From: an uncultured Rhodocyclaceae bacterium
GTDB taxonomy: Bacteria; Pseudomonadota; Gammaproteobacteria; Burkholderiales; Rhodocyclaceae
NCBI GenBank assembly: GCA_907163225.1
Contig: OU015322.1
Span: 2,395,001 to 2,459,000 of the forward strand
Direction of reading: 5' to 3'
DNA length: 64,000 nt
The notes under the pieces are model-generated. The model did no database searches. It saw only the letters and a program-made list of their open reading frames with translations, and was not told where the DNA came from. Numbering within the stretch: position 1 is the stretch's first letter; each line of letters starts with the position of its first letter. The position numbers and the translations under genes were made by a program. Below are positions 5,931 to 64,000 of the stretch, in pieces.

Positions 5931-6091
5931 GGTGATCTTAAAAGACAAAATTAACGTTGCGCCGATTATACGCTGGGGCAAATCCCCGCCGTGAAATTGC
6001 TTTACACCTCCGAATGTTATTGTTAGCATCTGAAGTGAATTATTGGTTATTTTGCTAAATACGTATTCCGTAAGGACTTTTTGGGGGTCTG

Positions 6092-7177
6092 GTGGGCTTC
6101 GATATCTCAGCGTTGTTAAATCCCAAGGCGCGTTCCTTGTTCGGATTGGACATCAGTTCGTCCGCCGTCAAGATGGTTGAACTCAGTGCCAATGGGAAAG
6201 ACGGCTATCGCGTTGAGCGCTACACCATAGAGGTGTTGCCCAAGGATGCCGTATCTGATGGAAACATCGCCAACCTGGAAGGTGTGGTCGATTGCGTCAA
6301 GCGTGCCTGGAAACGGATGGGCACCTCGACTCGCAATGTTTCCATGGCACTCCCCGGCTCCGCGGTCATTACCAAGAAAATCATTGTTCCAGCTGGTTTG
6401 CGTGATGAAGAGCTTGAGGCTCAGGTCGAAACTGAGGCAAATCAATACATTCCATTTTCGATTGATGAAGTGAATCTGGATTATCAAGTGATTGGGCCGG
6501 CGCCAGCCGTCCCCGATGAGCTTGAGGTCTTGATCGCAGCCTCGAAAAAAGAGCGCGTCGAAGACCGCGTTGCAGTGGCTGACTCCGCCGGCCTGAAGGC
6601 GATTGTGGTGGATGTTGAGTCGTTTGCTGCGTTGGCGGCTTTCGAGTTAATCGAGCGTCAGTTGCCGGAAGCCGGCAAAAATCAAGTCGTTGCCCTGATC
6701 GATGCCGGTGCAAACGTGATGAACTTGACCGTGCTGCGCAATGGGCAGCAGGTCTATGCTCGTGAACAGGCTTTTGGTGGTGGGCAATTGACTCAGGATA
6801 TTGCTCGCCACTACGGCATGAATTTCGAAGATGCCGAAACGGCAAAGCGCGCGGGGAATCTCCCCGAAGGTTATGAAATCGAGTTGCTGAACCCTTTCAT
6901 GGAAAATTTGGCGCTGGAGGTCTCGCGAGCGCTGCAGTTCTTCTTCACCTCAACTCAATACAATCAGGTTGATCACATCGTTCTGGCTGGTGGGTGTGCC
7001 GTCATTCCGGGTATTGATGAGGTGGTGGCTACCCGGACACAAGTGAATACGCTGATCGCCAACCCGTTCGCCAATATGGTGCTGTCAGATCGTGTCCGGG
7101 CCAAAAGCTTGCTCGCAGACGCGTCGTCTCTGATGGTGGCCTGTGGCTTGGCGCTGAGGAGGTTTGATCCGTCATGA
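6092..7177 (+). CDS. pilM: PilM, type IV pilus inner-membrane assembly ATPase-like protein
   Basis: 361 residues with an FtsA/actin-like fold. It carries an N-terminal LFGLDISSSAVKMVEL phosphate-1 motif, a central ALIDAGANVMNLTVL segment and a C-terminal VLAGGCAVIPGID motif. PilM sits on the cytoplasmic face and binds the N-terminal peptide of PilN (here MIRINLLP in the next gene), linking the PilNO complex to the motor side of the type IV pilus. The start is GTG. It is the first gene of pilMNOPQ, each overlapping the next by 4 bp. Confidence 0.96.
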   Translation: MGFDISALLNPKARSLFGLDISSSAVKMVELSANGKDGYRVERYTIEVLPKDAVSDGNIANLEGVVDCVKRAWKRMGTSTRNVSMALPGSAVITKKIIVPAGLRDEELEAQVETEANQYIPFSIDEVNLDYQVIGPAPAVPDELEVLIAASKKERVEDRVAVADSAGLKAIVVDVESFAALAAFELIERQLPEAGKNQVVALIDAGANVMNLTVLRNGQQVYAREQAFGGGQLTQDIARHYGMNFEDAETAKRAGNLPEGYEIELLNPFMENLALEVSRALQFFFTSTQYNQVDHIVLAGGCAVIPGIDEVVATRTQVNTLIANPFANMVLSDRVRAKSLLADASSLMVACGLALRRFDPS

Positions 7178-7743
7178 TTCGTATCAACCTCCTGCCGCAT
7201 CGCGAAGAGGCGAAGAAAGCCCGGCGCGAACAATTTTTTGTATTGGCTGGCCTGGTCTCAGTTCTGGGCGCGCTGATTGTATTTGCCGTGTACACGTTCA
7301 TTGGAAGTGCAATCAGCAATCAGGATGCCTCAAATGATTTTCTCAAGAGAGAAATCGCCGTCCTTGACAAGCAACTCGACCAGATTAAGCGCCTGAAAGA
7401 ACAAACTCAGGCCTTGCTGTCGCGCAAGCAGGTTATTGAAAATCTTCAGCGTGATCGCGGAGAAACAGTTTATCTGCTTAGCGAATTGGTCAAACAGGTG
7501 CCGGAGGGTATTTACCTCAAGTCGCTAAAGCAGGATGGCTTGCGCGTGAGCATTACTGGTCACGCTCAGTCAAATGCACGTATCTCGGCACTGATGCGCA
7601 ATCTGGATGCTTCTCCTTGGCTGGAAGCGCCGCAATTGATTGAAAGTAAGGCTGTGGTGGTGAACGGACGTCGAATCAATGAATTCGGCATGAATTTCGT
7701 TCTCACTCGCGTCAAAGTGGAAGACGTGAAGGAGAAAAAATGA
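7174..7743 (+). CDS. pilN: PilN, type IV pilus alignment subcomplex protein
   Basis: 189-residue bitopic inner-membrane protein. The cytoplasmic N-terminus MIRINLLPHREE is the conserved PilM-binding peptide. A single membrane helix follows (FFVLAGLVSVLGALIVFAVY, about residues 22-41), then a coiled coil and a periplasmic ferredoxin-like domain. It forms heterodimers with PilO. The ATG overlaps the pilM stop (ATGA) and its stop overlaps pilO. Confidence 0.96.
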   Translation: MIRINLLPHREEAKKARREQFFVLAGLVSVLGALIVFAVYTFIGSAISNQDASNDFLKREIAVLDKQLDQIKRLKEQTQALLSRKQVIENLQRDRGETVYLLSELVKQVPEGIYLKSLKQDGLRVSITGHAQSNARISALMRNLDASPWLEAPQLIESKAVVVNGRRINEFGMNFVLTRVKVEDVKEKK

Positions 7744-8423
7744 TCACAAAAAATATCTCCTTGCCCAATATTGATTTTCGTTCGATAGCCGATGATTTTC
7801 GGCTGATGAACCCGAATGAACCGGGGGCATGGGCAATAGTTCCTAAGGTCACAGTCCTGATCGGGTTGTTCGCTCTGATCCTTCTTGCGGGCTGGTGGTT
7901 TGTCTGGAACGACCAATTGGCTGAGCTTGAAACCAAGCAGCGTGAAGAAGAAACGCTCAAACAGCAATATCTGGACAAGAAGCGCCAGGCTGTAAATCTG
8001 GATTTGTATATCCAGCAGCTGGCTGAAATTGATCGCTCATTTGGTGCATTGCTCAAGCAGCTGCCGGATAAATCGGAAATTGAAGCGCTGTTGATCGAGG
8101 TGAATCAGGCGGGTCTAGGTCGCGGACTGCAGTTCGAGCTGTTCAAGCCAGGGCAGGAGCAGGTCAAGGATTTCTACGCTGAGCTTCCTATTACGGTAAA
8201 AATAAATGGTAGCTATCACGATTTCGGGGCATTCGCTGCCGACATTGCCAAGCTGCCCCGCATCGTGACCTTGAACAATATTTCCATTGCGCCGGTGAAG
8301 GATGGTGGGGTTCTTTCTCTTGACGCCACAACCAAAACGTTCCGCTATCTGGATGAAGAAGAAATTGCGAAGCAGAAAAAAGCTGAGCAAGAGAAGAAAG
8401 CTGCGCAAGGAGCGAAGAAGTGA
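7740..8423 (+). CDS. pilO: PilO, type IV pilus alignment subcomplex protein
   Basis: 227 residues: a short cytoplasmic part, one membrane helix (VTVLIGLFALILLAGWWFVW, about residues 38-57), a coiled coil rich in Glu/Gln/Lys, and a periplasmic domain. It pairs with PilN and contacts PilP. The C-terminus is an unusually lysine-rich tail (KKAEQEKKAAQGAKK). Translation is coupled to both neighbours through 4-bp overlaps. Confidence 0.95.
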   Translation: MITKNISLPNIDFRSIADDFRLMNPNEPGAWAIVPKVTVLIGLFALILLAGWWFVWNDQLAELETKQREEETLKQQYLDKKRQAVNLDLYIQQLAEIDRSFGALLKQLPDKSEIEALLIEVNQAGLGRGLQFELFKPGQEQVKDFYAELPITVKINGSYHDFGAFAADIAKLPRIVTLNNISIAPVKDGGVLSLDATTKTFRYLDEEEIAKQKKAEQEKKAAQGAKK

Positions 8424-8965
8424 AACGGATATTGCTCATCGCCATGTGTGGCCTCATCGGAGCGTGCTCAGGAAGCGATCACGAAGAGCTGAAACAATGG
8501 ATGGCAGAAAACACTTCGGACATGCGCGGAAGCATTCCGAAGCTGCCTGAAGTCAAGCCCTATGAGCCTGTGCCATACGACGTTGATGGTACGGTTGACC
8601 CATTCAAGCCCAGCAAGATTGAGCCAGAGTCCAAATACAAGCAGGTCGCTGGCAAGGGTGGCGCATTCCAGCCCGATTTCGAGGCACGGGAGGTTCGCAA
8701 TAGCCTTCTTGAAAAGTATCCGGTCGAATCCTTGAAGATGATCGGCTATATGAATGTCAACAAGCGCCCAATGGCTGTTCTTCAGGTTGAAGACAAGGTC
8801 AAGCAGGTCAAGGTCGGTGACTACATGGGGCTGGATTTCGGTATGGTGACGCAGATTTCGGACACTGAAGTTCAACTGCGCGAATTGATTCAAGATTCTG
8901 CGGGTGACTGGACTGAGCGCAAGAGCTCGCTCTACCTGCAGAGCAAGGAGGGAAGCAAGAAATGA
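8420..8965 (+). CDS. pilP: PilP, type IV pilus inner-membrane lipoprotein
   Basis: 181 residues with a lipoprotein signal peptide (MKRILLIAMCGLIGACSGSD, lipobox Cys near residue 16). A disordered linker follows, then a C-terminal beta-sandwich (ESLKMIGYMNVNKRPMAVLQ). PilP connects the PilNO complex to the PilQ secretin in the periplasm. The frame overlaps both pilO and pilQ, so all five pil proteins are probably made from one transcript. Confidence 0.95.
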   Translation: MKRILLIAMCGLIGACSGSDHEELKQWMAENTSDMRGSIPKLPEVKPYEPVPYDVDGTVDPFKPSKIEPESKYKQVAGKGGAFQPDFEAREVRNSLLEKYPVESLKMIGYMNVNKRPMAVLQVEDKVKQVKVGDYMGLDFGMVTQISDTEVQLRELIQDSAGDWTERKSSLYLQSKEGSKK

Positions 8966-50387: not shown

Positions 50388-53300
50388 ATGACCGATCTTT
50401 CCGTTGCCAAGAAGCTTTCTCCGTACAAGCCGAAGAACAAGGTTCGTTTCGTCACCGCCGCCTCGCTGTTCGACGGCCACGACGCCTCGATCAACATCAT
50501 GCGCCGCATCCTGCAATCGACCGGCTCCGAAGTGATCCACCTCGGCCACAACCGCTCGGTGCAGGAAATCGTCAATGCCGCGCTGCAGGAAGACGTGCAG
50601 GGCATCTGCATCACCTCCTACCAGGGTGGCCACGTCGAATTCTTCAAGTACATGATCGACCTGCTGAAGGCCAACGGCGGCGCCAACATCAAGGTGTTCG
50701 GCGGTGGCGGCGGCGTCATCGTGCCGTCGGAAATCAAGGAACTGCACGAATACGGCGTGACCCGTATCTACGCCCCGGAAGACGGCGTCCATATGGGCCT
50801 GCAGGGCATGATCAACGAAGTCGTACAGAAGTCCGACTTCGATGTCGCCGATGAAGGTGTGCCAACCGTCGAGCAAGTGCTGGCTGGCTTGAAGGCTGGC
50901 GACAAGCGCCTCCTGGCCCGGGTCATCACCCTGCTCGAAAACGGCGAAGCCCCGGCCCTCAAGGAGCCGCTGCTCAAGGCGGCGGCCGAAGCGAATATCC
51001 CCGTACTCGGCATCACTGGCACCGGCGGCGCCGGTAAGTCCTCTCTCACCGATGAAATCGTCCGCCGATTCCGCCTCGATCAGGGCGATACGGTCAAGAT
51101 CGGCCTGATCTCCATCGACCCGTCGCGCAAGCGTACAGGCGGCGCCCTGCTCGGCGACCGCATCCGGATGAACGCCATCGAACATCCGAACATCTTCATG
51201 CGTTCGCTGGCTACCCGCGATACCGGCTCGGAAATTTCCGTCGCGCTGCCGGAAGTCATCGCCGCCTGCAAGCTGGCCGGTTTCGATCTGGTCGTTGTCG
51301 AGACCTCCGGTATTGGTCAGGGTAATGCGGCCATCGTGCCTTTCGTTGATCTGTCGCTGTACGTGATGACGCCGGAGTTCGGTGCTGCCTCGCAGCTGGA
51401 AAAGATCGACATGCTCGACTTCGCCGATTTCGTGGCGATCAACAAGTTCGACCGCAAGGGCGCCGAGGATGCGCTGCGTGACGTCCGCAAGCAGTACCAG
51501 CGCAACCGCGAAGCTTTCACCACGCCGACCGACGACATGCCGGTGTTCGGCACGCAGGCCGCCCGCTTCAACGACGATGGCGTCACCGCCTTGTATCAGG
51601 CGCTGGTTCCGGCCCTGACCGAGAAGGGGCTGAAGCTCAAGCCCGGTCAATTGCCGATCGTCACCGTCAAGCAGTCCTCGACCCAGCGCGCCATCGTGCC
51701 GGCCCAGCGCGTCCGTTATCTGGCAGAGATCGCCGACACCGTGCGCGGCTATCACGCTCACACCGAAGAGCAGGTCAGGATCGCCCGCGAACGTCAGTCG
51801 CTGCGCATTGCCAAGGGTGTCTTTGCCGGTTGCGACAAGAACGTGGCCGATTTCGACGAAATGCAGGCGTTCAAGGATGCCCAGCAGGATCCGAAAGCCA
51901 AGAAGCTGCTCGACATGTGGCCGGCGACTGTTGAGGCCTATTCGGGCGACGAGTACGTCGTGAAGATTCGCGACAAGGAAATCCGTACCAAGCTGGTTTC
52001 CGAATCGCTGTCCGGCACCAAGATCAAAAAGGTCATCCTGCCCAAATTTGGCGATGACGGCGAAACGCTGCGCTTCCTGATGCGCGAGAACGTGCCCGGC
52101 TCCTTCCCTTACACCGCCGGCGTCTTCGCCTTCAAGCGCGAGGGTGAAGACCCGACCCGTATGTTCGCCGGCGAAGGCGATGCCTTCCGCACCAACCGCC
52201 GCTTCAAGCGCGTTTCCGAAGGCATGCCGGCCCACCGTTTGTCGACCGCCTTCGACTCCGTGACCCTGTACGGCTGCGACCCCGACGAGCGCCCGGACAT
52301 CTACGGCAAGATCGGCAATTCCGGTGTCTCGATCGCCACCCTCGATGACCTGAAAGTGCTCTACGACGGCTTCGATCTGCTCTGTCCGACCACCTCGGTT
52401 TCGATGACGATCAACGGGCCGGCACCGATCATCCTCGCCTGCTTCTTCAATACCGCCATTGATCAGCAGATGGCCAAGTTCGAAAAAGAAAACGGCCGCC
52501 AGCCGACCGAGGACGAAGCCCAAAAGATTCGTGAGTGGGTGCTCAAGTCAGTGCGCGGCACCGTGCAGGCTGACATCCTGAAAGAAGACCAGGGGCAGAA
52601 TACCTGCATCTTCTCAACCGAATTCGCGCTGAAGATGATGGGCGACATCCAGGAATTTTTCGTCCATAACCAGGTGCAGAATTTCTACTCGGTGTCGATC
52701 TCCGGGTATCACATCGCCGAAGCCGGTGCGAATCCGATCAGCCAGCTCGCCTTCACCCTCTCCAATGGCTTCACCTACGTCGAGAGCTACCTGGCGCGTG
52801 GCATGCATATCGACGACTTCGCGCCCAACCTGTCGTTCTTCTTCTCGAACGGCATGGACCCGGAATATTCCGTGATCGGCCGCGTTGCCCGCCGCATCTG
52901 GGCGCTGGCGATGAAGAACAAATACGGTGCCAACGAACGCAGCCAGAAGCTGAAATACCACATCCAGACCTCGGGCCGCTCGCTGCACGCCCAGGAGATG
53001 GATTTCAACGACATCCGCACCACGCTGCAGGCGCTGATCGCCATCTACGACAACTGCAACTCGCTGCACACCAACGCCTACGACGAGGCGATCACGACGC
53101 CGACCGAGGAAAGCGTGCGCCGCGCCATGGCCATCCAGCTCATCATCAACCGCGAGTGGGGCGTTGCCAAGAACGAGAACCCGAATCAGGGCGCCTTCGT
53201 CATCGACGAGCTGACCGATCTGGTCGAAGAAGCCGTGCTCAAGGAATTCGAAGCCATCGCCTCGCGCGGCGGCGTGCTCGGCGCCATGGAAACCGGCTAC

Positions 53301-53651
53301 CAGCGCGGCAAGATCCAGGAAGAGTCGATGTACTACGAACACAAGAAGCACGACGGCTCGTACCCGATCATCGGCGTGAATACCTTTCTGAATCCGAAGG
53401 GAATGGCCCAGCAGGAAATCGAACTGGCCCGTTCGAGCGACGAAGAAAAGCAGTCGCAGATCAAGCGTTTGCGCGATTTTCAGGCAAAAAACGCGTCGAC
53501 CGCAGCAGGCATGCTGACCAAACTGAAGCAGACGGTCATCGAAGACGGCAACGTCTTTGCCGTGCTGGTTGATGCGGTCAAATGCTGTTCGCTCGGCCAG
53601 ATCAGCAGCGCGCTGTATGAAGTCGGCGGCCAGTACCGCCGCAGCATGTAA
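50388..53651 (+). CDS. icmF: IcmF, fused isobutyryl-CoA mutase with G-protein chaperone
   Basis: 1087 residues. Domain order is a B12-binding domain with [10 protein letters not shown] (the cobalamin His motif), a MeaB/ArgK-type GTPase with Walker [11 protein letters not shown] at about residue 211, a linker, and the acyl-CoA mutase barrel. The active-site stretch [12 protein letters not shown] fits IcmF rather than methylmalonyl-CoA mutase, which has a different Tyr/Arg pattern there. It interconverts isobutyryl- and n-butyryl-CoA with adenosylcobalamin, linking to the acyl-CoA oxidation genes elsewhere in the window. The gene is intact. A decayed partial copy of its 3' end lies at 58294-58757. 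Confidence 0.95.
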
Positions 53652-53884
53652 GCCGCGGGGACAAAGGGAGGCAGTGGCATTCATGTGGGGTCGCAGTGAA
53701 GGGATTCTTGCCTGAATAGCCGTATGGGCCCATAGACATTCTGCTCTCTCCGTTCGGAACTCCTGTGCCTGTCCACGCGACGCATGCCGGGTGTCTATCG
53801 ACGCAGCCGTTCCGAATGAACGCTACTCTACTGGGGGGTACGAACCACGTGCCTTCTGCTGCAAGAATGCGGATGTGGAGGGCG

Positions 53885-54142
53885 CCGGCATCGACCGAAC
53901 GCGAATTCCGGCGCCACCTTGACTGAGGCATCTTGGTGCAGGATTTTGCTCGCGTCCACTTTTGCGGCTGCGGCCATTATTTCATCGTTGCCTACTCTTG
54001 CAAGGTAAGCGACATCTGCTCCGCCTGGTGCCGACAAGTGGACCACCGCTCTTGGAGGCAGTGGATGGAGCGGACGGAGGATGGCAGCGACCTCTTGGTG
54101 CAGCCATTGCCGGTGTTTGAATTCGATCAACGGATTGCGTAG
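53885..54142 (+). mobile_element. Decayed IS91-family (Y2) transposase fragment
   Basis: In one plus frame the DNA reads TEREFRRHLD, stop, GILVQDFARVHFCGCGHYF, then IVAYSCK and an ICSAW remnant. IS91/ISCR transposases start with a very similar zinc-binding block (EFRRHLDCGILAHGFARV, then CGDCGHDFLVAFSCKGRGVCPSC). Here the Cys codon TGC has become TGA at 53924 and a later Cys is Trp. Only the N-terminal zinc region survives. The rest of the gap 53652-54409 holds nothing I can name except a dispersed element copy. Confidence 0.6.
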
Positions 54143-54409: not shown

Positions 54410-55690
54410 ATGCCCTACGACTTCTTCTTCAGCTATCGCCGCGCCGATTTCGGGGCGCAGATGAAGGAATTCTTCATCGACCTGTCGGAGGAGGTGCGCA
54501 AGCTGCGCGGTCTGGACAGGCATGAGAACATTGCCTTCTTCGACCAGGAAAACATTGAGACCGGCGACAATTGGGATGCCGCGCTGCTCAATGCTCTGCA
54601 GCAGAGTAAGGTGCTGGTTCCGTTGTATTCACCGGCTTACTTCAAGAGTGAATACTGCGGCAAGGAGTGGCAAAGTTTCCATCTGCGCCGCCTGGCTCAC
54701 GCCAAGCAGCATGGGGGGAGCGAGCCGGCGGTGATCCGGCCGGTGATCTGGATCCCCATCCGCAAAGACAACAAGCTCACCTTGCCGGGAAACGTCAGTG
54801 ATGCGGTGAAACGTGTTCAGTTCACCTGGAAGGAGGAGGATTTGGCCATCAACCAGAAGGGTCTGGAGCAGATGGTGCGTATCAAGGTCAATAACACTCA
54901 GCAGTACTGGAACTTTGTGCGCGATTTCGCCGAAGAGCTCAAGGATGTGATCGAGCAGATCGACCTGCAGCCCCTGGATCAGGTGCCCGCCCTGGCGGAC
55001 ATTCCTTCCGCCTTCAATGTGGCCATGCCAGTTGGCGGGCCGGCGCCGGTGGGGAAGCAGGGTTTCCGCAGGCACGTGCGCTTTATTTTCGCTGCCTTGG
55101 ACCCGGTGCATCTCGGTGCCGGCCGTAACCCGACGCCCTATCAGGATGAAGGCGGCGCAGACTGGAAGCCTTTCTACCCGGACCATCAGCGCCGCATCGG
55201 GCCGATGGCCACTCATATCGTTTCCGACACTGACATCGACTTCGACTGCGACCAGATCGAATTGAGCAAGGATCTGGCCGGTGCCGTACGCGCGGCGCTC
55301 AAGGAGGGCAAGCCGGTGGTGGTCTTCGTTGACCGCTGGTCCCTGTACTCCAGTCCCGAGTTCCAAGACATCTTCCGTGAGTTCGACGGCCAGAACTTCA
55401 ATAACTGCGCAGTGCTGCTGCCTTGGAATCCAGGTGATCCGGAACTGGCGGCCAACAAGCAGAATATTGATCAGGTAGTCGCAGACGTGCTCCGTTTCCG
55501 TTCCCAGTACGCTCCATCGTCGCCCTACTATTGCAAGGATGTGGGTTCGGAGGAAGAGCTGCGTCAGACCCTGCGCGCGGTACTCAATCAGATCCAGGCT
55601 GAAATGCGCCGCGTCGCCCCTGTACGGCGCAATGTGGGGAGCGGTATTGCCCGACCACTGATCAGTGGGCCCGGAGGAGTGATGCCATGA
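54410..55690 (+). CDS. TIR-domain protein with FxsC-like C-terminal domain
   Basis: 426 residues. The TIR domain spans residues 1-150: FFFSYRRAD (box 1), then FKSEYCGKEWQSF with Glu86 at the position of the catalytic glutamate of NAD-cleaving TIR domains. A second domain at about residues 215-400 (HVRFIFAALDPVHLG, VVVFVDRWSLYSSPEFQDI) matches my recollection of the TIR-like FxsC protein of FxSxx-COOH systems. No signal peptide or membrane helix. The ATG follows GAGGA. It overlaps the next gene by 4 bp (ATGA). It is probably the nucleotide-modifying effector or signal arm of a two-gene conflict system. Confidence 0.82.
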   Translation: MPYDFFFSYRRADFGAQMKEFFIDLSEEVRKLRGLDRHENIAFFDQENIETGDNWDAALLNALQQSKVLVPLYSPAYFKSEYCGKEWQSFHLRRLAHAKQHGGSEPAVIRPVIWIPIRKDNKLTLPGNVSDAVKRVQFTWKEEDLAINQKGLEQMVRIKVNNTQQYWNFVRDFAEELKDVIEQIDLQPLDQVPALADIPSAFNVAMPVGGPAPVGKQGFRRHVRFIFAALDPVHLGAGRNPTPYQDEGGADWKPFYPDHQRRIGPMATHIVSDTDIDFDCDQIELSKDLAGAVRAALKEGKPVVVFVDRWSLYSSPEFQDIFREFDGQNFNNCAVLLPWNPGDPELAANKQNIDQVVADVLRFRSQYAPSSPYYCKDVGSEEELRQTLRAVLNQIQAEMRRVAPVRRNVGSGIARPLISGPGGVMP

Positions 55691-58272
55691 GCTCGGCACG
55701 CGGCGGACGCATCATTACATTTTATTCTTACAAGGGCGGCACCGGCCGTTCCATGGCGCTGTCTAATTTAGCTTGGGTGCTGGCCGCCAACCGCAAGCGG
55801 GTACTGTTGATGGACTGGGATCTAGAAGCGCCCGGACTGCACCGCTACTTTCATCCGTTCCTGGCTGACAAGGAATTGACCACCTCGCGCGGTCTAGTGG
55901 ATCTGCTGGCCGACTATGCAGACCTGGCCATCCAGCCGCCAGTCGAAGGGGAGGAAGACGACTGGTACCGGGAACTCACCGATCTCACACCCTACCTGCT
56001 GGGAATCAACTTTCCCGACTTTCCCGAGGGTGGACGTATTGACCTACTGCCCGCCGGCCGCCAAGGCGCTGGTTATGCTGACAAGCTGCATGCCTTCGAT
56101 TGGGATACTTTTTATGAACGCCTCGGCGGCGGCACGTACTTGGAAGCCGTCAAGGCGCGCCTGCGCGAAACCTACGACTACGTACTAATCGACAGCCGCA
56201 CCGGGGTCAGCGATACTGCCGGTATCTGCACGGTTCAGATGCCAGACGTGCTGGTCACCATGTTCACCTACAACAACCAGAGCATACGCGGCGCACTGGC
56301 GGTAGCACAGTCGGCCGCCGATACGCGCAGGCGCCTGTATGGTCAGTTCTCGCATGAGACCTTTCGCGTCTTTCCCGTCCCCTCGCGCGCCGACCCGTTC
56401 GAAGTGCGCAAGCTTCAACTGCGTCAGGCGTATGCGCGCCGGTTGTTTGCCCCGCTGCTGGATCACATGCCGGAACGCGAACACAATGGATACTGGAGCG
56501 CCGTGGAGGTGCCCTACAACGCCTTTCTGAACTACGAGGAAGTGCTGTCACCACTGATTTTCAACCCCGAGGACCCCAAGCTGCCCATGGCGTCGGTGTT
56601 GCGTTTGGCCCGGGAGGTCACCGACGGCGACGTGACCCGCTATGACTTGCCCTTGTCGCCGGAGCAGAAGCAAAAACTGCTACAGGCCTATGAGCAGGTC
56701 GATGATCAATCGGCCAGTCCCGAGGTAACGGCCGCCCAGGCGACAACGGTAACCGAAAGCCCGGCCGATGCCCTGATACGTGGCGCAGATGCCCTGCTCG
56801 GCCAGTTCAGCCAGACTGAACTCGACTTGGCTGGCCGCCTGCTGCTGCGCCTGGTACGCTTGCCGCGCGGCCAAGAACCGTCCGGTCTTAAGCGACTGCT
56901 GGTGCCGATAGATACCCTCCCCGACGATGAACGCTCGATCATGGATCGATTCGTCCAAGCGCGTGTTTTGCGCCTGACCCAACTTCAGGAAAACACGTCA
57001 GTGGAGGTCGCCGACGAGGCTCTGCTGGCACGCTGGCGACAGCTTATCGCCTGGGCCGAGACGGATAAAGTGTTCCTGGAACAGCGGTACTGGATACAGG
57101 CCGCCTGGGAGCAGTGGCGGCACGCCGGCCAGCCGGAAAAACTATTGCTAGCCGATCCGCTGCTGGCGCATGCCACTCGGTTGCTGTACACCCATGCGCC
57201 GCAACTGACCACGGATGAAATCGAATTCATACGGGCCAGCGGAGACTACCGCGCCAAAGAGGAGGCCCGGGAAGCTAGTCTCGCAAGCGTCCCGCCCCCG
57301 CCCCCGTCCGCGTCGGCTCCCGCCGCATCGCTGCGACGCGTAGTTCTGCCCGGCTGGATCTATGCTGTTCTCGGCCCGCTGGCCGTGCTTCTGGTCATCC
57401 TGTTTGTTACATCGAGTTCCATGTGGGGCAAGAAGAACATATCTCAAAGTGAGCCGCCCGTTTTGGTAGCGGCCACCGCGCCATCGTCCGCTCCGACAAC
57501 CGGTCAGTGGCCACCACCTCAATCCCAGACGACTGCCAACGAGGCAGCCATTGGGTTCAACATCGCAGGGCAACAAAGCCTGCTGGCCGGCCGACTGGAC
57601 GAGGCCATTGGCAATTTTTCTACAGCCCTGAAACTGCGACCTGACTTCGCTGAAGCGCTGTTCAACCGCACCATCGCCTATCAGCTCATGAAGGAGAACG
57701 ACAAGGCCATCGCCGACTTGGTCGCCGGCCTTAAGCTGCGTCCGGATCAGATCGACGCGCAACTGGAGTTGGCAAGGTTGCTGGCGGAGAGCAAGGACAG
57801 TCAGGCCGCTATCAATCAGTATCAGATCGCCCTGGCAATGAACCTGACCCCCGAACAGCGCCAGGAGGCCGAGAGGTCGCTGGAACGACTCAACCCTACG
57901 CCAGACCTGCCCCAGGTCTACTTGCATATCAACAATCGAGGCGATTACGCCTTTGCCGAACGTTTGAGCACTGAACTTAAGTCCGCAGGCTCCCAAGTCA
58001 AGGGAATTCAGGTGCTGGCCCAGTCCACCACAGCCGATGTGCGCTATGCCAATCTCTCAGACGAACGCTTGGCCCGACGTTTGCAAGTCACGGTTCAGAC
58101 GGCCCTGACCAATGCCAACTATCCAACTCGGGTCGGATTGCTGTACATCGGCAACAAATATCAGAGCGTACCCCGAGGCCGAATAGAAATTTGGCTGCCG
58201 CCCCTGACGCAAATGAAGCAAAGCGGCGATACGACAAAGATTTACCAGGATTCAGCGAAGCGCGCCCAATAA
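55687..58272 (+). CDS. KGGVGR-type ATPase fused to nSTAND1-like arm, membrane helix, TPRs and LytR_C-like tail
   Basis: 861 residues. The N-terminus is a ParA/MinD-like (SIMIBI) ATPase with the variant P-loop YSYKGGTGRSMA (residues 13-24) and MDWDLEAPGLHRYFHPF. Residues about 365-520 instead resemble the winged-helix and helical arm that ends nSTAND1 ATPases (VEVADEALLARWRQLIAWAE near 440, then LTTDEIEFIRASGDYRA). A Pro/Ala linker leads to one membrane helix (557-578). After that come TPRs (EAIGNFSTALKLRPDFAEAL and a second unit) and a C-terminal domain (VYLHINNRGDYAFAERLSTEL) like LytR_C-type tails in conflict proteins. A GGAGGAG site and ATGA overlap couple it to the TIR gene. Confidence 0.8.
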   Translation: MSSARGGRIITFYSYKGGTGRSMALSNLAWVLAANRKRVLLMDWDLEAPGLHRYFHPFLADKELTTSRGLVDLLADYADLAIQPPVEGEEDDWYRELTDLTPYLLGINFPDFPEGGRIDLLPAGRQGAGYADKLHAFDWDTFYERLGGGTYLEAVKARLRETYDYVLIDSRTGVSDTAGICTVQMPDVLVTMFTYNNQSIRGALAVAQSAADTRRRLYGQFSHETFRVFPVPSRADPFEVRKLQLRQAYARRLFAPLLDHMPEREHNGYWSAVEVPYNAFLNYEEVLSPLIFNPEDPKLPMASVLRLAREVTDGDVTRYDLPLSPEQKQKLLQAYEQVDDQSASPEVTAAQATTVTESPADALIRGADALLGQFSQTELDLAGRLLLRLVRLPRGQEPSGLKRLLVPIDTLPDDERSIMDRFVQARVLRLTQLQENTSVEVADEALLARWRQLIAWAETDKVFLEQRYWIQAAWEQWRHAGQPEKLLLADPLLAHATRLLYTHAPQLTTDEIEFIRASGDYRAKEEAREASLASVPPPPPSASAPAASLRRVVLPGWIYAVLGPLAVLLVILFVTSSSMWGKKNISQSEPPVLVAATAPSSAPTTGQWPPPQSQTTANEAAIGFNIAGQQSLLAGRLDEAIGNFSTALKLRPDFAEALFNRTIAYQLMKENDKAIADLVAGLKLRPDQIDAQLELARLLAESKDSQAAINQYQIALAMNLTPEQRQEAERSLERLNPTPDLPQVYLHINNRGDYAFAERLSTELKSAGSQVKGIQVLAQSTTADVRYANLSDERLARRLQVTVQTALTNANYPTRVGLLYIGNKYQSVPRGRIEIWLPPLTQMKQSGDTTKIYQDSAKRAQ

Positions 58273-58293
58273 AGTAAGAGACAACCTCCACAG

Positions 58294-58757
58294 CATCTGG
58301 GCGATCACGATGAAGAACAAGTACGACGCCAACGAGCGCAGCCGGAAGCTAAAGTACCACATCTAGACGTCCGGCCATTCGCTGCACGCCCAGGAAATGG
58401 ACTTCAACGATATTCGTACGACGCTGCAGGCGCTGATCGCCATCTACGACAACTGCAACTCGCTGCACACCAACGCCTACGACGAAGCGATCACGACGCC
58501 GACCGAGGAGCCCGTGCGCCGCGCCATGGCCATCCAGCTGATCATCAACCGCGAGTGGGTCGTTGCCAAGAACGAGAGCCCGAATCAGGGCGCCTTCGTC
58601 ATCGACGAACTGACCGATCTGGTCGAAGAAGCCGTGATGAAGGAATTTGAAGCTATTGCCTCGTGAGGCGGCGTGCTCGGCGGCCATGCGTTGCTCGCTC
58701 GGCCAGATCAGCTCAGCGCTGTATGAAGTCGGTGGCCAGTACCGGCGTAGCATGTAA
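58294..58757 (+). pseudogene. Broken duplicate of the icmF 3' end
   Basis: Homologous to icmF from about 52894 onward, roughly 90 percent identical by eye. One CAG codon is TAG (58364-58366 region). A CGC is TGA near 58664. About 300 bp of icmF (about 53286-53585) are missing before the final [13 protein letters not shown]-stop, which is restored at 58755-58757. An 89-codon remnant (58397-58666) is open but is not a gene. Together with intact icmF it brackets the TIR/KGGVGR operon. Confidence 0.93.
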
Positions 58758-58896: not shown

Positions 58897-61740
58897 ATGA
58901 ACGAATCCGCGGTATCGCTTTCCCCGGCGTCGGCGGAATTCGACTATTTTCTCAGCTATCGCCGTAGCGACACTCCCCGTATTCAACCTTTGCTTGATGC
59001 GTTGACCAAGCTTGGCTTGCGCGTCTGGCGAGATACTGCCGAAATCGAGGATTTTTCCTCCATTCAGCGCGCCATCGACCACGGCTTGGCCCGCTCGAAA
59101 ACGATGCTGGTCTGGTACTCGGCGGCCTACCCGAAATCCCGCGCCTGCCAGTGGGAGCTGACGGCAGCCTACATCGCAGCCCAGGCCGAGGGCGATCCCC
59201 GGCGGCGCATACTGGTTATCAATCCGGAGGCAGCGAGCAGCCACATCCACCTGCCGGAACTTTTGGACCAGCAATACCTGCTGGCGCCAGCCGCCGACGA
59301 TCCCGCCACCGTTACTGCGGCGGCGCGTCGTATCAGCGAGGCGCTGGCCGCGGTCAACGGGCCACTGGGCGCCATTCGGGCGCTGCAGATGCCGCGCTGG
59401 CTGCCGGCACCGGCCACCGGCTCCAGCCGCTTTGTTGGCCGGCTAGCCGAAATGTGGCGCATCCACGGCCAGTTGTTGGCCGGCGAGGCTGCCATGCTCA
59501 CCGGCAGCGGCGGCAAGCCCGGGCTGGTGCAAGTCCGGGGCTCGGGCGGTATTGGTAAAAGCCTGCTGGCCGAAGAATATGCGCTGCGTTTCGGCGCCGC
59601 CTACCCGGGTGGCGTCTTCTGGCTGCGTGCGTTCGGGCACGCCGACGGTGGCGTGGAACTGAACCCCGAGCAAAGGGCCGCCAGCCGCGATACCCAGCTT
59701 CGCGACTTTGCCCAGTATCTCGGGCTCGATGTGCGGGGACTGGAGGCCGCCGCGGTGAACGGCCGGCTGCACGCCTTTTTCGCAGAACAGGGCCAGCCGT
59801 TCCTGTGGGTGGTGGACGACTTTCCCTCGACGCCGGGGCCGGAAGGCCTCAAGCCTTGGCTCGCGCCGCACGCTCTCGGCCGCAGTCTGGTGACGACCCG
59901 CGCTCGCCGCCTGGACGCCGTCGCCCACATCGAGCTGCCGCAGCTCGACGCCGACGAGGCCTTTGATCTGCTCACCCGCGCCGGTCAAGCCGAGGCTCTG
60001 CCGCCCAATGGGCCGGAGGAGGAAGCTGCCGCCCGCGAAATTTGCCGACAACTCGGCTATCACGCGCTGGCCATCGACGTCGCGGCCGGCCTGGTTCGAC
60101 GCCGGGGCTACCAACCCTTCCTCGACGGCCTCGGACGCACCGAAAAGGACATCCTCGACCTCGCCGCCGAACTCGGCGAAGACCTGCCCAACGGCCACCA
60201 ACGCAACATCGCCGCCACCTTCCTGAGCAGTATTGAACTGCTGGACGCGGCGGGCCTCGACATCCTGCGCCTCGCTGCCCAACTGGCCGCTGCGCCCATC
60301 CCTCGGCAACTGCTGGCTGACTGTTTCGCCGCTGCTGACGGGCTCGATCAAGGCGAAGCCGACGACCGCACTGACCTCGCCATCGACCAGGTCTTGAAGC
60401 ATTCCCTGGCCGAAGAAACGGCACCTGGCACCGTCACAATCCACACCCTGATTGCCCGCACCCTGCGTTTCAGGGAGTCGGACAAGGCGCGGGTGTCAGC
60501 GTTGCGGCATGCGGCCAATGTCGCGCTGAACGAAAAATTGCCGGCGGTGGCCGACATTCGCCGCCACGGCGAGCTGGAACAATGGGTCGTGCACGCGCGG
60601 TCGATGACTGCCGTTGTGGACGACGAGCAGACGGCAATCCTGCTGGGCTGGGTGGCTCGCCATGATCTTGAACGAGCCGATTTTAGGGTGGCTGGTGACG
60701 GATTTGGGCGGCAGTTTGAAGAGCGTCGTCGCCTGCTGGGGGCGGAACATCCGGCTACGCTGACGTCGATGAACAACCTGGCCAGCACGCTCTGGGCTCA
60801 GGGCGATCTGGCCGGCGCCCGGGAACTTGAAGAGAAGGTGCGCGACGCGCGCTCTCGCCTGCTGGGGGCGGAACATCCGGATACGCTGACGTCGATGAAC
60901 AACCTGGCTAGCACGCTCTGGGCTCAGGGCGATCTGGCCGGCGCCCGGGAACTTGAAGAGAAGGTGCGCGACGCGCGTTCTCGCCTGCTGGGGGCGGAAC
61001 ATCCGGATACGCTGACGTCGATGAACAACCTGGCCGGCACGCTCCGGGCTCAGGGCGATTTGGCCGGCGCCCGGGAGCTTGAGGAGAAGGTGCGCGACGC
61101 GCGCTCTCGCCTGCTGGGGGCGGAACATCCGGATACGCTGACGTCGATGAACAACCTGGCCGGCACGCTCCGGGCTCAGGGCGATTTGGCCGGCGCCCGG
61201 GAACTTGAGGAGAAGGTGCGCGACGCGCGCTCTCGCCTGCTGGGGGCGGAACATCCGGCTACGCTGACGTCGATGGGCAACCTGGCCAGCACGCTCTGGG
61301 CTCAGGGCGATCTGACTGGCGCCCGGGAACTTCAGGAGATGGTACTCGACGCGCATCATCGCCTGCTGGGGGTGGAACATCCAGATACGCTGACTTCGAT
61401 GAACAATCTGGCCAGCACGCTCCGGGCTCAGGGCGATTTGGCCGGTGCCCGGGAGCTTCAGGAGAGGGGGCTCGAAGCGCGTCGTCGCCTGCTGGGCGCG
61501 GAGCATCCGGAGACCTCGATAATTGCTTGGAATTACCTGCTTAGTCTGCATCAGTCTGCTAGCACTGAAGCGTGCCTTGATATCTTCCGGCGCGACTTGG
61601 CCTGGTTGCTGTCGTGCGATGAGGAGACTCTCGGTGCCGACCAGCGCAGCATCGCCGGCAAGTTGCGGGAAATGCAGGCGAGCGGGGATCTGGGTGACGA
61701 TGCTTCGCTTGACGGGCCGATAGACAAAATGGATGCATGA
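58897..61740 (+). CDS. TIR-NB-ARC-TPR protein (NLR-like STAND ATPase)
   Basis: 947 residues. TIR at about residues 14-150: DYFLSYRRSD, then SRACQWEL with Glu87 at the catalytic position. NB-ARC core: P-loop RGSGGIGKSLL (about 215), hhhh-Asp-Asp Walker B FLWVVDDFP (about 302), TTRAR, and a GYHALAI motif in the place of GLPLA. Residues about 613-870 are six near-identical 42-residue TPRs plus a partial seventh (consensus LLGAEHPDTLTSMNNLA). By analogy with STAND sensors the TPRs would detect a ligand and TIR would act after ATP-driven assembly. A strong AGGAGGG ribosome site precedes the ATG. Confidence 0.88.
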   Translation: MNESAVSLSPASAEFDYFLSYRRSDTPRIQPLLDALTKLGLRVWRDTAEIEDFSSIQRAIDHGLARSKTMLVWYSAAYPKSRACQWELTAAYIAAQAEGDPRRRILVINPEAASSHIHLPELLDQQYLLAPAADDPATVTAAARRISEALAAVNGPLGAIRALQMPRWLPAPATGSSRFVGRLAEMWRIHGQLLAGEAAMLTGSGGKPGLVQVRGSGGIGKSLLAEEYALRFGAAYPGGVFWLRAFGHADGGVELNPEQRAASRDTQLRDFAQYLGLDVRGLEAAAVNGRLHAFFAEQGQPFLWVVDDFPSTPGPEGLKPWLAPHALGRSLVTTRARRLDAVAHIELPQLDADEAFDLLTRAGQAEALPPNGPEEEAAAREICRQLGYHALAIDVAAGLVRRRGYQPFLDGLGRTEKDILDLAAELGEDLPNGHQRNIAATFLSSIELLDAAGLDILRLAAQLAAAPIPRQLLADCFAAADGLDQGEADDRTDLAIDQVLKHSLAEETAPGTVTIHTLIARTLRFRESDKARVSALRHAANVALNEKLPAVADIRRHGELEQWVVHARSMTAVVDDEQTAILLGWVARHDLERADFRVAGDGFGRQFEERRRLLGAEHPATLTSMNNLASTLWAQGDLAGARELEEKVRDARSRLLGAEHPDTLTSMNNLASTLWAQGDLAGARELEEKVRDARSRLLGAEHPDTLTSMNNLAGTLRAQGDLAGARELEEKVRDARSRLLGAEHPDTLTSMNNLAGTLRAQGDLAGARELEEKVRDARSRLLGAEHPATLTSMGNLASTLWAQGDLTGARELQEMVLDAHHRLLGVEHPDTLTSMNNLASTLRAQGDLAGARELQERGLEARRRLLGAEHPETSIIAWNYLLSLHQSASTEACLDIFRRDLAWLLSCDEETLGADQRSIAGKLREMQASGDLGDDASLDGPIDKMDA
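60733..61510 (+). repeat. 126-bp tandem repeat encoding TPRs
   Basis: Six full 126-bp units and part of a seventh start at 60733, 60859, 60985, 61111, 61237, 61363 and 61489. Units 2-4 differ at very few bases, including silent positions, which indicates recent duplication or gene conversion. The frame is kept, since 126 is divisible by 3. Confidence 0.93.
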
Positions 61741-61750
61741 AAGGAACGAG

Positions 61751-63190
61751 ATGACGGATGCGATGAAAAAAGTGCTTATGCCCTCCAGTACACTGAAGGC
61801 GCTCAAACGATGGCCGGGCGCCAGCGCCGAGCGCGCCGCCGTGGTCTTCATTCATGGTTTCGGCGGCGACTGGCAGTCGACCTGGCAGTCCTTTCCCGAT
61901 TTTCTCGCCGCCGATACCCGGCTGGCCGGCTGGGACATTTATTCGCTCGGTTACGACTCGCATTTGCGGGTCGATGTCGTCAAGTTGTGGAGCGCCGATC
62001 CGGATTTGCAGGCGGTGGCGGACAAGCTGACGACCGATGTCCGCGTTGGGGAACTGAAGTCTTACAAAAGCCTGGCTCTGATCGCCCACAGCATGGGCGG
62101 GCTGGCCGTCCAGCGCGCCTTGCTCGATAGCGCGGCGCTGCGCGAGCGGGTCAGTCACGTTTTTCTGTTCGGCACGCCGAGCGGCGGGCTGGTCAAGGCT
62201 TCGTTGATTCGCTTGCTGAAGCCGCAGTTGCGAGACATGGCCTCAGGCGGCGACTTCATCAAGCGGCTGCGCCAGCAATGGGACGGGCTTTTCAAGCCGA
62301 AGAAAGGCAAGTCCTTCACCCTCTCGGTGGTCGGCGGCCTGCGCGACGAGTTTGTGCCTTACGAGTCTTCGCTGGGGCCGTTCCCGGAGGCCGACTATCC
62401 CGGCTCGCGCTTCGTCGTGCCGGGTAATCACCTGGAAATCGTCAAACCGGGCGCCGCCGATGCGGAGAGCGTGCAACTCGTCATCAACCGTCTGGTCGGC
62501 GAGGCGGCGCCGGCCGGGCCGTGGAATGCAGCGCGGGTGGCCATTGAGTCGCGCGATTTTCAGCGGGCAGTGAACTTGCTCGAAGCGCGGGCGGCGGAGC
62601 TGGATCAGGAGGGGCTGGCGCAACTGGCGTTGAGCCTGGAAGGTGTCGGCCGCCAGGAGGACGCCATCGATTTGCTCAAACGTCACGGCAATTCCGGCAC
62701 CGACGCCATGGGGGTGCTGGCCGGGCGGCTCAAGCGGCGCTGGCTGCTGACCCGGAGCGAGGCGGACGGCAGTGCGGCCCGCCAGCTCTACACCGAGGCG
62801 CTGACGCTGGCGTCGGCCGCGAATGACTTCGCCCAGGCCTACTATCACGCGGTCAACGTCGCTTTTTTCGAACTTTTCGCCGACAAGCAGCGTGTGTCTG
62901 CACGTGCCACGGCGCAGCGGGCGCTCGACTATTGCGCCCTGGCCGAGGAGTCCGAACTGACCCCCCAGCGCAAATGGCGGCTGGCCACCGAGGGCGAGGC
63001 CTTGCTTCATCTGGGCAGGGCGGAGGAGGCTTATGCGCGCTACCGGCAGGCGGCGGCGCCCGAGCTGGGCGCCACGCCGCGGGAACTGGAATCGATGTAC
63101 CGCCAGGCCATCTACCTGAGCCGCGAAATCGGCAACACGGCGATGCGCCGGGAATTGACCAAAATCTTTCGTCACGAGGACGGCGTATGA
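61751..63190 (+). CDS. Alpha/beta hydrolase (putative lipase/esterase) with helical-repeat tail
   Basis: 479 residues from the ATG at 61751, which has AAAGGA 6 nt upstream. The frame extends 18 nt further to an ATG inside the previous gene. The hydrolase domain at residues 28-250 has an oxyanion HGFGGDWQSTW, nucleophile Ser114 in IAHSMGGLA, a likely acid in GLRDEFVPY (Asp199), and His227 in VPGNHLEIV, so the triad looks complete. The second half (about 250-479) is TPR-like helices. It has no signal peptide, so a cytosolic substrate such as membrane lipid or acyl groups is plausible. It is co-transcribed with the TIR-NB-ARC gene. Confidence 0.78.
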   Translation: MTDAMKKVLMPSSTLKALKRWPGASAERAAVVFIHGFGGDWQSTWQSFPDFLAADTRLAGWDIYSLGYDSHLRVDVVKLWSADPDLQAVADKLTTDVRVGELKSYKSLALIAHSMGGLAVQRALLDSAALRERVSHVFLFGTPSGGLVKASLIRLLKPQLRDMASGGDFIKRLRQQWDGLFKPKKGKSFTLSVVGGLRDEFVPYESSLGPFPEADYPGSRFVVPGNHLEIVKPGAADAESVQLVINRLVGEAAPAGPWNAARVAIESRDFQRAVNLLEARAAELDQEGLAQLALSLEGVGRQEDAIDLLKRHGNSGTDAMGVLAGRLKRRWLLTRSEADGSAARQLYTEALTLASAANDFAQAYYHAVNVAFFELFADKQRVSARATAQRALDYCALAEESELTPQRKWRLATEGEALLHLGRAEEAYARYRQAAAPELGATPRELESMYRQAIYLSREIGNTAMRRELTKIFRHEDGV

Positions 63191-64000
63191 AACCCCTTTG
63201 CTTCGTATTGATGCCCTTTGGCACCAAAACCATTCCCTCCGGCCAGACGGTCAATTTTGATGCGGTCTATGAAACCCTGATCCGGCCAGGCATCGTTGCG
63301 GCGGGGATGGAGCCCTTGCGGGCGGATGAGGAGGCGATGGGCGGGATGATCCACAAGCCGATGTACGAGCGGCTGATTCTGTGTGACTACGCGGTGGCCG
63401 ACCTGACCGGGGCGAATGCCAACGTGTTCTACGAGCTCGGCCTGCGCCACGGGGTGCGGCCGGCGACAACGGTAATGCTGTTTGGCGAGAAGGGGCCGCT
63501 GCCCTTCGATGTGGCGCCGCTGCGCACGATCCGCTACGAACTGGCGGCTGACGGCAAGCCGGCCGCTGCCGCGGCGGGGGCGGCCGGGGTGACGAAGTTT
63601 CTCGACGAGGCGTGGCGCAATCGCGATGAGCCGCCGAAGGACAGCCCGGTTTTCCAACTGGTCGAAGGCTACGCGGCGCCGGATATCGCCCGCCTGAAGA
63701 CCGATGTTTTCCGCGACCAGGCGAACTACGCGCTGGCCGCGCGGGAAAAGCTGGCCGCCGCCCGGCGGGCCGGCAAGGATGCGGTGAAGGCAGCGGCGGC
63801 CGAATTGGGCGACTTTGCCGCCGCCGAGTCCGGCGTGGTGATCGATCTGTTGCTCTCTTATCGAGCGGTCAGCGACTGGCAGGGCACGGTTGATGTGGTC
63901 GGCGCGATGGCCAAGCCGCTGCGCCAGAGCACCTTGGTCCAGGAGCAGTACGGTTTTGCGCTGAATCGGCTGGGTCGTAAGGACGAGGCGGAGTTGGTGC
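63187..64000 (+). CDS. TRAFs-binding-domain-like (DUF4071-type) protein, 5' part
   Basis: Starts at the ATG overlapping the hydrolase stop (ATGA) and is open through the window end, at least 271 codons. The N-terminal 120 residues read MKPLCFVLMPFGTKTIPSGQ, then HKPMYERLILCDYAVADLTG and NANVFYELGLRHG. That is a TIR-like/deoxyribosyltransferase-type fold seen at the front of bacterial TRAFs-binding (DUF4071) proteins. A helical Ala-rich region follows, probably TPR-like. The ADLTGANANVFYELG motif holds the Glu expected at the active site of that fold. The downstream end is not visible. Confidence 0.65.
   Translation, partial: MKPLCFVLMPFGTKTIPSGQTVNFDAVYETLIRPGIVAAGMEPLRADEEAMGGMIHKPMYERLILCDYAVADLTGANANVFYELGLRHGVRPATTVMLFGEKGPLPFDVAPLRTIRYELAADGKPAAAAAGAAGVTKFLDEAWRNRDEPPKDSPVFQLVEGYAAPDIARLKTDVFRDQANYALAAREKLAAARRAGKDAVKAAAAELGDFAAAESGVVIDLLLSYRAVSDWQGTVDVVGAMAKPLRQSTLVQEQYGFALNRLGRKDEAELV

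Follow-up and report, generated by a model that had tools for sequence, protein, structure and literature searches.

A TIR-FxsC and KGGVGR gene pair in an uncultured Rhodocyclaceae bacterium as a candidate immune core with exchangeable sensor modules

The stretch of DNA analysed here, called the window throughout, comprises 64,000 nucleotides from an uncultured Rhodocyclaceae bacterium (assembly GCA_907163225.1, contig OU015322.1, positions 2,395,001 to 2,459,000) and carries at its positions 54410 to 58272 a pair of genes for a TIR-FxsC protein (gene 1) and a KGGVGR protein (gene 2), two components so far known chiefly from the FxSxx-COOH peptide systems of soil actinobacteria. The pair recurs in four phyla, and the radical S-adenosylmethionine (SAM) enzyme FxsB tracks the TIR-NB-ARC-TPR form of the KGGVGR protein, not the pair itself. 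We therefore infer that the two genes form a core whose sensor modules can be exchanged, peptide maturation being one optional add-on. As read from the sequence, it may act as a mobile two-protein, membrane-anchored immune switch that cleaves nicotinamide adenine dinucleotide (NAD) in abortive infection, a reading to which we give a probability of about 0.5. A preliminary description of the locus had proposed an ATGA-coupled TIR (FxsC-like) and KGGVGR pair, and both genes are indeed present, overlapping by ATGA at 55687-55690. Their features are as follows.

54410..55690, plus strand: gene 1, TIR-FxsC protein of 426 amino acids, predicted NAD-cleaving effector
54410..54961, plus strand: TIR domain, residues 1-184 of gene 1 (Pfam profile, structure model and fold search)
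54665..54667, plus strand: GAG codon of Glu86 of gene 1, predicted catalytic glutamate (alignment and solved TIR structure)
55055..55630, plus strand: FxsC C-terminal domain, about residues 216-407 of gene 1 (TIGR04276, model and alignment columns)
55687..58272, plus strand: gene 2, KGGVGR protein of 861 amino acids, predicted membrane-anchored hub and sensor
55708..56313, plus strand: KGGVGR MinD/ParA-like domain, residues 8-209 of gene 2 (NF047398 and Foldseek)
56764..57138, plus strand: residues 360-484 of gene 2, which match the final third of nSTAND1 (PF20703, 54.2 bits, profile positions 257-378 of 379)
57355..57423, plus strand: single predicted membrane helix, residues 557-579 of gene 2 (hydropathy 2.45 over 19 residues; modelled helix 557-579 in a low-confidence stretch)
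57565..57885, plus strand: TPR region, about residues 627-733 of gene 2 (TPR_11, TPR_1 and others in Pfam)
57913..58194, plus strand: C-terminal alpha/beta domain, about residues 743-836 of gene 2 (alignments with the related loci L028, L039 and L027)

The N-terminal part of gene 1 matches TIR_2 in the Pfam scan with 50.9 bits (cut-off 28) and is also assigned the TIR fold, and the C-terminal part matches the FxsC_Cterm profile TIGR04276 with 70.8 bits (cut-off 55). Glu86, pointed out in the preliminary description, is unchanged in all 57 rows of the FxsC alignment, which consists of the window row and 56 others out of 75 listed (L105 was left out, as were 18 judged redundant), and in the profile alignment it coincides with Glu86 in the 'SS.WC..E' stretch of the solved Roq1 TIR; we take this TIR-domain glutamate to be the catalytic residue. 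Strands and helices alternate in the modelled C-terminal domain, where Trp252, Pro254 and Asp308 are invariant in the alignment columns. A second TIR was considered for this domain on account of its TIR-like order of strands and helices and was rejected at a profile-profile probability of 1.6% against the N-terminal TIR; the fold search lists of the whole gene 1 model are dominated by the N-terminal TIR, so that other folds may have been crowded out.

Gene 2 exceeds the cut-off of the AAA_KGGVGR profile NF047398 (150.1 bits, cut-off 90), as expected from the preliminary description, and its KGGVGR domain resembles the Soj and MinD folds with a target-normalised Foldseek template-modelling score of at most 0.78. 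The P-loop reads YSYKGGTGRSM, with KGGTGR at residues 16-21, and the matched ParA/MinD structures read KGGVGKTT or KGGTGKTT at the position of KGGTGRSM. The nSTAND1-like stretch, presumably a winged helix, is preceded by no STAND NTPase domain in the Pfam scan, which also gives no match for the C-terminal alpha/beta domain. If the membrane helix is single, the N-terminal domain would be cytoplasmic and the TPR half would lie outside; the flanking charges give no decision on topology.

That the match of the pair to known families is not due to chance follows from the curated profiles hitting two intact genes and from the recurrence of the gene order across phyla. With the KGGVGR domain alone as query, at least 556 relatives were confirmed, and among the best 80 genome loci a same-strand FxsC-like open reading frame adjoins the KGGVGR gene in 76, a proportion to be read with the origin of the query in mind, as discussed below; the other four loci are L052 and L053 (at a contig edge), L059 and L064. 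Pairs were found in Actinomycetota, Pseudomonadota, Acidobacteriota and Nitrospirota, those closest to the window's in Comamonadaceae and Sphaerotilaceae, in line with the betaproteobacterial host named in the preliminary description. In the trees of both proteins, which are unrooted and have an unresolved backbone, the window pair forms a well-supported branch with those of Caenimonas and Azohydromonas, apart from the FxsB-bearing rows, in keeping with the earlier suggestion of a system distinct from the actinobacterial ones. Both trees also agree on Rhizobium with Edaphobacter, which belong to different phyla, on L033-L036, and on L029 with L031 and L060. The two genes have thus largely been inherited together, and their shared main groups argue for joint transfer of the pair. 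Origin by loss from an actinobacterial FxSxx operon finds no support in these unrooted trees, which would still accommodate an old loss. The scan of viral contigs with FxsC returned no relative, and that with KGGVGR returned ten loci, on IMG/VR viral-labelled contigs (L108-L117), none with an FxsC-like open reading frame at E 1e-5. More distant KGGVGR genes lie on rhizobial plasmids (L024:6327-6992 and L025:6403-6993), preceded by a helix-turn-helix gene or a weak FxsC-like open reading frame, and the sequences of these loci suggest that the wider KGGVGR family has other partners.

What varies among the pairs is the C-terminal part of the KGGVGR protein. In Pfam scans it ends in TIR-NB-ARC-TPR in L072 and L029 and in an FGE-sulfatase domain in L022 and L040; the latter domain has a C-type lectin fold according to PMC7159879. 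The nSTAND1-like stretch is accompanied by TPR in the window and L028 and occurs without a TPR match in L039, and further C-termini comprise TPR (L027), TIR-pentapeptide (L042), TIR-pYEATS (L052), TIR with an nSTAND5-type end (L041) and NACHT, which is above cut-off in L033 and reaches 24.9 against 26.7 in L034. Loci L033-L036 are actinobacterial pairs with a NACHT-type KGGVGR protein (L035 and L036 by alignment alone) and hydrophobic helices, and FxsB was not found in their fetched stretches, the flanks of L034 and L036 being short. According to a local probe, 68 of the 80 loci are of the NB-ARC type. Taking as full flanks at least 6000 bases upstream and at least 4500 downstream, an FxsB-like gene lies near 57 of 60 NB-ARC loci (the exceptions being L029, L056 and L064) and near none of six loci of other architectures, two of which (L059, L060) look truncated. 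The corresponding Fisher value of 9e-7 (5.5e-5 without these two) ignores relatedness and is not taken as proof. FxsB is likewise absent from the fetched stretches of the actinobacterial pairs L029, L033 and L035 (full flanks) and L031, L034 and L036 (short flanks), and in seven further host genomes of other architectures it is never over the cut-off (for L022 the plasmid record only). The absence of FxsB and of an FxSxx peptide noted in the preliminary description extends to the whole source genome, where the best scores are 37.6 bits for FxsB (TIGR04269, cut-off 370; 583.1 bits in the positive control L072) and 14.2 bits for the peptide (TIGR04268, cut-off 28), although short peptides may escape such a search; the FxSxx_TPR profile NF040586 is not among the 25 matches listed for gene 2. 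The term 'reduced' used in that description finds no support: as FxsB follows the C-terminal module, is seen only with NB-ARC forms among the loci with full flanks and is not found in the fetched stretches of some actinobacterial pairs either, and as the window's branch lies apart from the FxsB rows, the window pair is better described as the shared core bearing another module.

Conflict genes accompany the pair, and its locus is an insertion specific to this strain. The pair lies between icmF and a 3' remnant of icmF, beside a transposase remnant, an arrangement on which the preliminary description was silent, and the locus is made up as follows.

50388..53651, plus strand: icmF, intact housekeeping gene, left border of the insertion (NF045497, 1962.6 bits)
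53845..54003, minus strand: remnant of a transposase gene, upstream of gene 1 (its DNA is 71% identical to a portion of an Aeromonas plasmid transposase gene)
58288..58757, plus strand: icmF 3' end remnant with an internal deletion (two segments of the resident icmF match it at 90% and 85% identity)
58897..61740, plus strand: gene 3, TIR-(NB-ARC)-TPR STAND-type protein (TIR_2 56.6 bits, TPR_10 266.2 bits, NB-ARC 15.1 against a cut-off of 23.5)
61733..63190, plus strand: gene 4, alpha/beta hydrolase with TPR-S, overlapping gene 3 (PF20308 55.3 bits, Abhydrolase_6 32.5 bits)
63211..64000, plus strand: gene 5, MAP3K/TRAF-binding domain with TPR-S, continuing beyond the window to L148:11528 (PF13281 132.7 bits, PF20308 86.4 bits)

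After icmF, whose C-terminal part is matched in 55 of 60 genus genomes, the order is transposase remnant (the Aeromonas plasmid being the sole plasmid record it matches), pair, icmF remnant, genes 3, 4 and 5, and then a gene at L148:11653, a metalloprotease by eye. Among 18 genus relatives, the homologue of this last gene lies no more than about 165 bases behind icmF in four (L157, L158, L160, L161), is separated from it by 1.8-10.5 kb of other sequence in six, and was not found in the fetched stretch of eight; gene content at the site (window position 53652, L150-L167, families read by eye) differs across the genus. This varying spacing indicates a variable site, which in the window received an 11 kb insert of conflict genes, and the conflict surroundings suspected earlier are thus borne out by the TIR-TPR, hydrolase-TPR-S and TRAF-binding/TPR-S genes. 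The icmF remnant most likely comes from another genus member, since it is closer to the icmF of G721 (92.9% identity, against 90.5% to the resident gene), whereas the resident icmF is 95.3% identical to that of G684 over the same part. Genes 3-5 stand in a row (window 58897-64000, L148:5898-11528) and are possibly a separate conflict system. Promoter and terminator scans gave 5 and 13, respectively, where shuffled sequence averaged 2.3 and 9.1, and neither was used as evidence. Two Peptidase_C14 (caspase-family) matches, one in an 1836-residue frame, occur at G000:C1:3099747-3104820, about 650 kb from the pair, and a distant caspase effector was dismissed, no link being seen.

The pair is rare. 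A KGGVGR gene of the window type occurs in one of 76 genus genomes, the source's own (51 of the 76 reach 90% completeness with no more than 5% contamination), and a distant KGGVGR gene (82.3 bits) in the genus member G147 lacks FxsC. FxsC_Cterm is over the cut-off in one of 297 family genomes, again the source's, with three more weak matches (21.5-22.7 bits), while gene 1 is matched in four of 399 order genomes including the source's, both halves otherwise only in G673. KGGVGR matches at E 1e-20 or better, with up to five candidates per genome scored, are found in five of 369 class and ten of 398 phylum genomes, the source's included, the others at no more than 272 bits; within 1.5 kb flanks, FxsC is near two of the 18 KGGVGR loci from the genus, class and phylum scans, namely that of the window and, with a weak match of 26.6 bits, L187.

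Neighbourhoods were compared for six non-actinobacterial pairs (window, L022, L040, L027, L028 and L039; L041 and L042 were left out), and profile scans find conflict-type neighbours in four. Besides the window these are L022, with a TIR gene above the cut-off (32.5), a borderline TIR (27.1 against 28) and a SLOG gene, L040 with a TIR gene (34.3), and L027 of G673 with a caspase gene (95.4). In G673 the caspase gene (L027:8949-10673), TIR-FxsC (7639-8877) and KGGVGR-TPR (5258-7642) share one orientation, possibly a three-gene version. On a Streptomyces plasmid (L023) a large protein encoded behind an AAA-ATPase gene has FxsC as its C-terminal part, and on a Kitasatospora plasmid (L026) FxsC comes behind a MoxR gene; these positions would suit the vWA component in the ternary systems of Kaur et al. 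(PMC7159879).

In the mechanism that we propose, the KGGVGR domain would serve as a hub, keeping the TIR protein at the membrane or assembling it there, and the exchangeable C-terminal module of gene 2 would detect an invader or envelope damage. Detection would alter the nucleotide or assembly state of the hub, letting the TIR domains cluster, and the clustered TIR domains would switch on NAD+ cleavage and so bring the infected cell to a halt. The FxSxx systems of actinobacteria have TIR-NB-ARC-TPR on the same core, and the peptide made by the radical SAM enzyme would act on that module, as its ligand or gate, and not on the core. More broadly, and with slightly less than even confidence, FxsC-KGGVGR may be an autonomous, phylum-crossing immune core, in which a TIR executioner is driven by a MinD-like membrane hub that accepts different sensors in different lineages (NB-ARC-TPR, NACHT, C-type lectin, pentapeptide, TPR); the FxSxx peptide would then be accessory to one sensor type and the FxSxx system a special case. 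Several observations count against the immune-switch reading. The Walker A motif of gene 2 is deviant, its first lysine being retained and the 'GK[ST]' lysine replaced by Arg, so that nucleotide hydrolysis is not to be assumed: binding is plausible and hydrolysis doubtful from the sequence. The MinD/ParA-like domains of the systems treated by Kaur et al. (PMC7159879) are predicted there to be inactive. The C-terminal half of gene 2 is modelled with low confidence. The FxsC-like character ascribed to gene 1 holds for its C-terminal part, whereas its match to FxsC_Nterm (NF040588, 117.2 bits) falls under the cut-off of 130. The survey query derived from FxsC-linked KGGVGR proteins, and favours the pair and the FxsC-linked subfamily by construction; weaker KGGVGR relatives (up to about 280 bits on the query profile) mostly lack FxsC, L025 and L187 being weak exceptions. 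The trees conflict on L027, a long branch, which joins the window's group in FxsC (98/96) and Nitrospira L042 in KGGVGR (91/91, possibly a long-branch join). Two of the six assessed pairs stand in housekeeping surroundings, L028 (Caenimonas) beside rpoC and L039 (Azohydromonas) between cheZ and flhB; the preliminary description had held that a consistent housekeeping context would speak against defence, and such a context holds for these two and not for the four with conflict genes.

These surroundings, together with the predicted membrane helix and the replaced P-loop lysine of gene 2, would suit a regulatory or envelope-stress pair without a defence role, in which TIR serves for assembly; the invariance of Glu86, the rarity within the genus, the differing C-terminal modules and the conflict neighbours in four of six loci make this distinctly improbable. 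An unlikely alternative is that the TIR protein, as in Thoeris, does not exhaust NAD+ and produces an ADP-ribose-type messenger that activates a distinct effector, be it the product of gene 3, that of gene 4 or some further protein. The caspase-domain gene directly preceding the pair in G673 and the hydrolase-TPR-S and TIR-TPR genes adjoining it in the window would be candidate effectors of this kind, but neighbours vary among the six non-actinobacterial loci, those profiled in Caenimonas and Azohydromonas are housekeeping genes, no ThsA-like family lies beside the window pair, and ThsB models match gene 1 weakly (19.1 bits, PADLOC). It is very improbable that the five insertion genes are one system in which genes 1 and 2 with the TIR-(NB-ARC)-TPR protein recreate the single actinobacterial KGGVGR-TIR-NB-ARC-TPR chain. 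All five share strand and insertion, and gene 3 scores 285.4 bits on FxSxx_TPR (NF040586), just under the cut-off of 300, with 26-34% identity to three such actinobacterial proteins over 427-827 columns; yet its best-scoring part consists of the TPR repeats (residues 595-899), no gene 3-like neighbour is recognised beside L028 or L039, and the icmF remnant between the pair and gene 3 probably marks a separate arrival.

If the broader reading is true, the FxSxx system becomes one instance within a wider immune family. The two-gene form of the window, Caenimonas and Azohydromonas reduces the FxSxx question to a testable core. It opens the questions of whether the TIR cuts NAD+, whether the MinD-like hub switches it on and what each sensor sees, and it predicts that peptide maturation goes with the NB-ARC sensor rather than with FxsC.

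The FxsC and KGGVGR domains are already named by NCBIfam; in the open-licence literature, which leaves supplements and subscription journals outside, we found no description of an FxsC-KGGVGR pair without the peptide and no experiments on the function of either protein. Actinobacterial peptide systems include an AP-ATPase with an extra inactive MinD/ParA-like domain, according to Kaur et al. (PMC7159879). As to VMAP-MoxR-vWA systems, the Pfam scan of eight window proteins and gene 5 shows no MoxR or vWA family, the VMAP model not having been searched. Like Thoeris with its ThsB TIR, the window has a TIR enzyme within a small operon; unlike Thoeris, it has no ThsA-like match beside the pair (genes 1-4 by PADLOC and Pfam, gene 5 by Pfam). 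From AbTir and other bacterial TIR proteins gene 1 differs in its second domain and its dedicated KGGVGR partner. The Rhizobium beringeri plasmid pair (L022) and the Edaphobacter pair (L040) likewise consist of ATGA-overlapping TIR-FxsC and KGGVGR genes with FxsB not found, but their KGGVGR protein ends in the FGE-sulfatase domain. Closest are the pairs of Caenimonas sedimenti (L028) and Azohydromonas aeria (L039), which share the nSTAND1-like stretch, the branch in both trees and a genome without FxsB over the cut-off; they are about 31-35% identical to the window in FxsC and 56-59% in the KGGVGR domain, and differ in their housekeeping neighbourhood and, for L039, in lacking a TPR match. The FxSxx-COOH system, finally, has the FxsA peptide and the radical SAM enzyme FxsB, neither of which was found in the source genome, and shares with the window the order of an FxsC-type gene followed directly by one for a KGGVGR protein; the latter ends there in TIR-NB-ARC-TPR, whereas gene 2 continues with the nSTAND1-like stretch, a membrane helix, TPR and the C-terminal domain.

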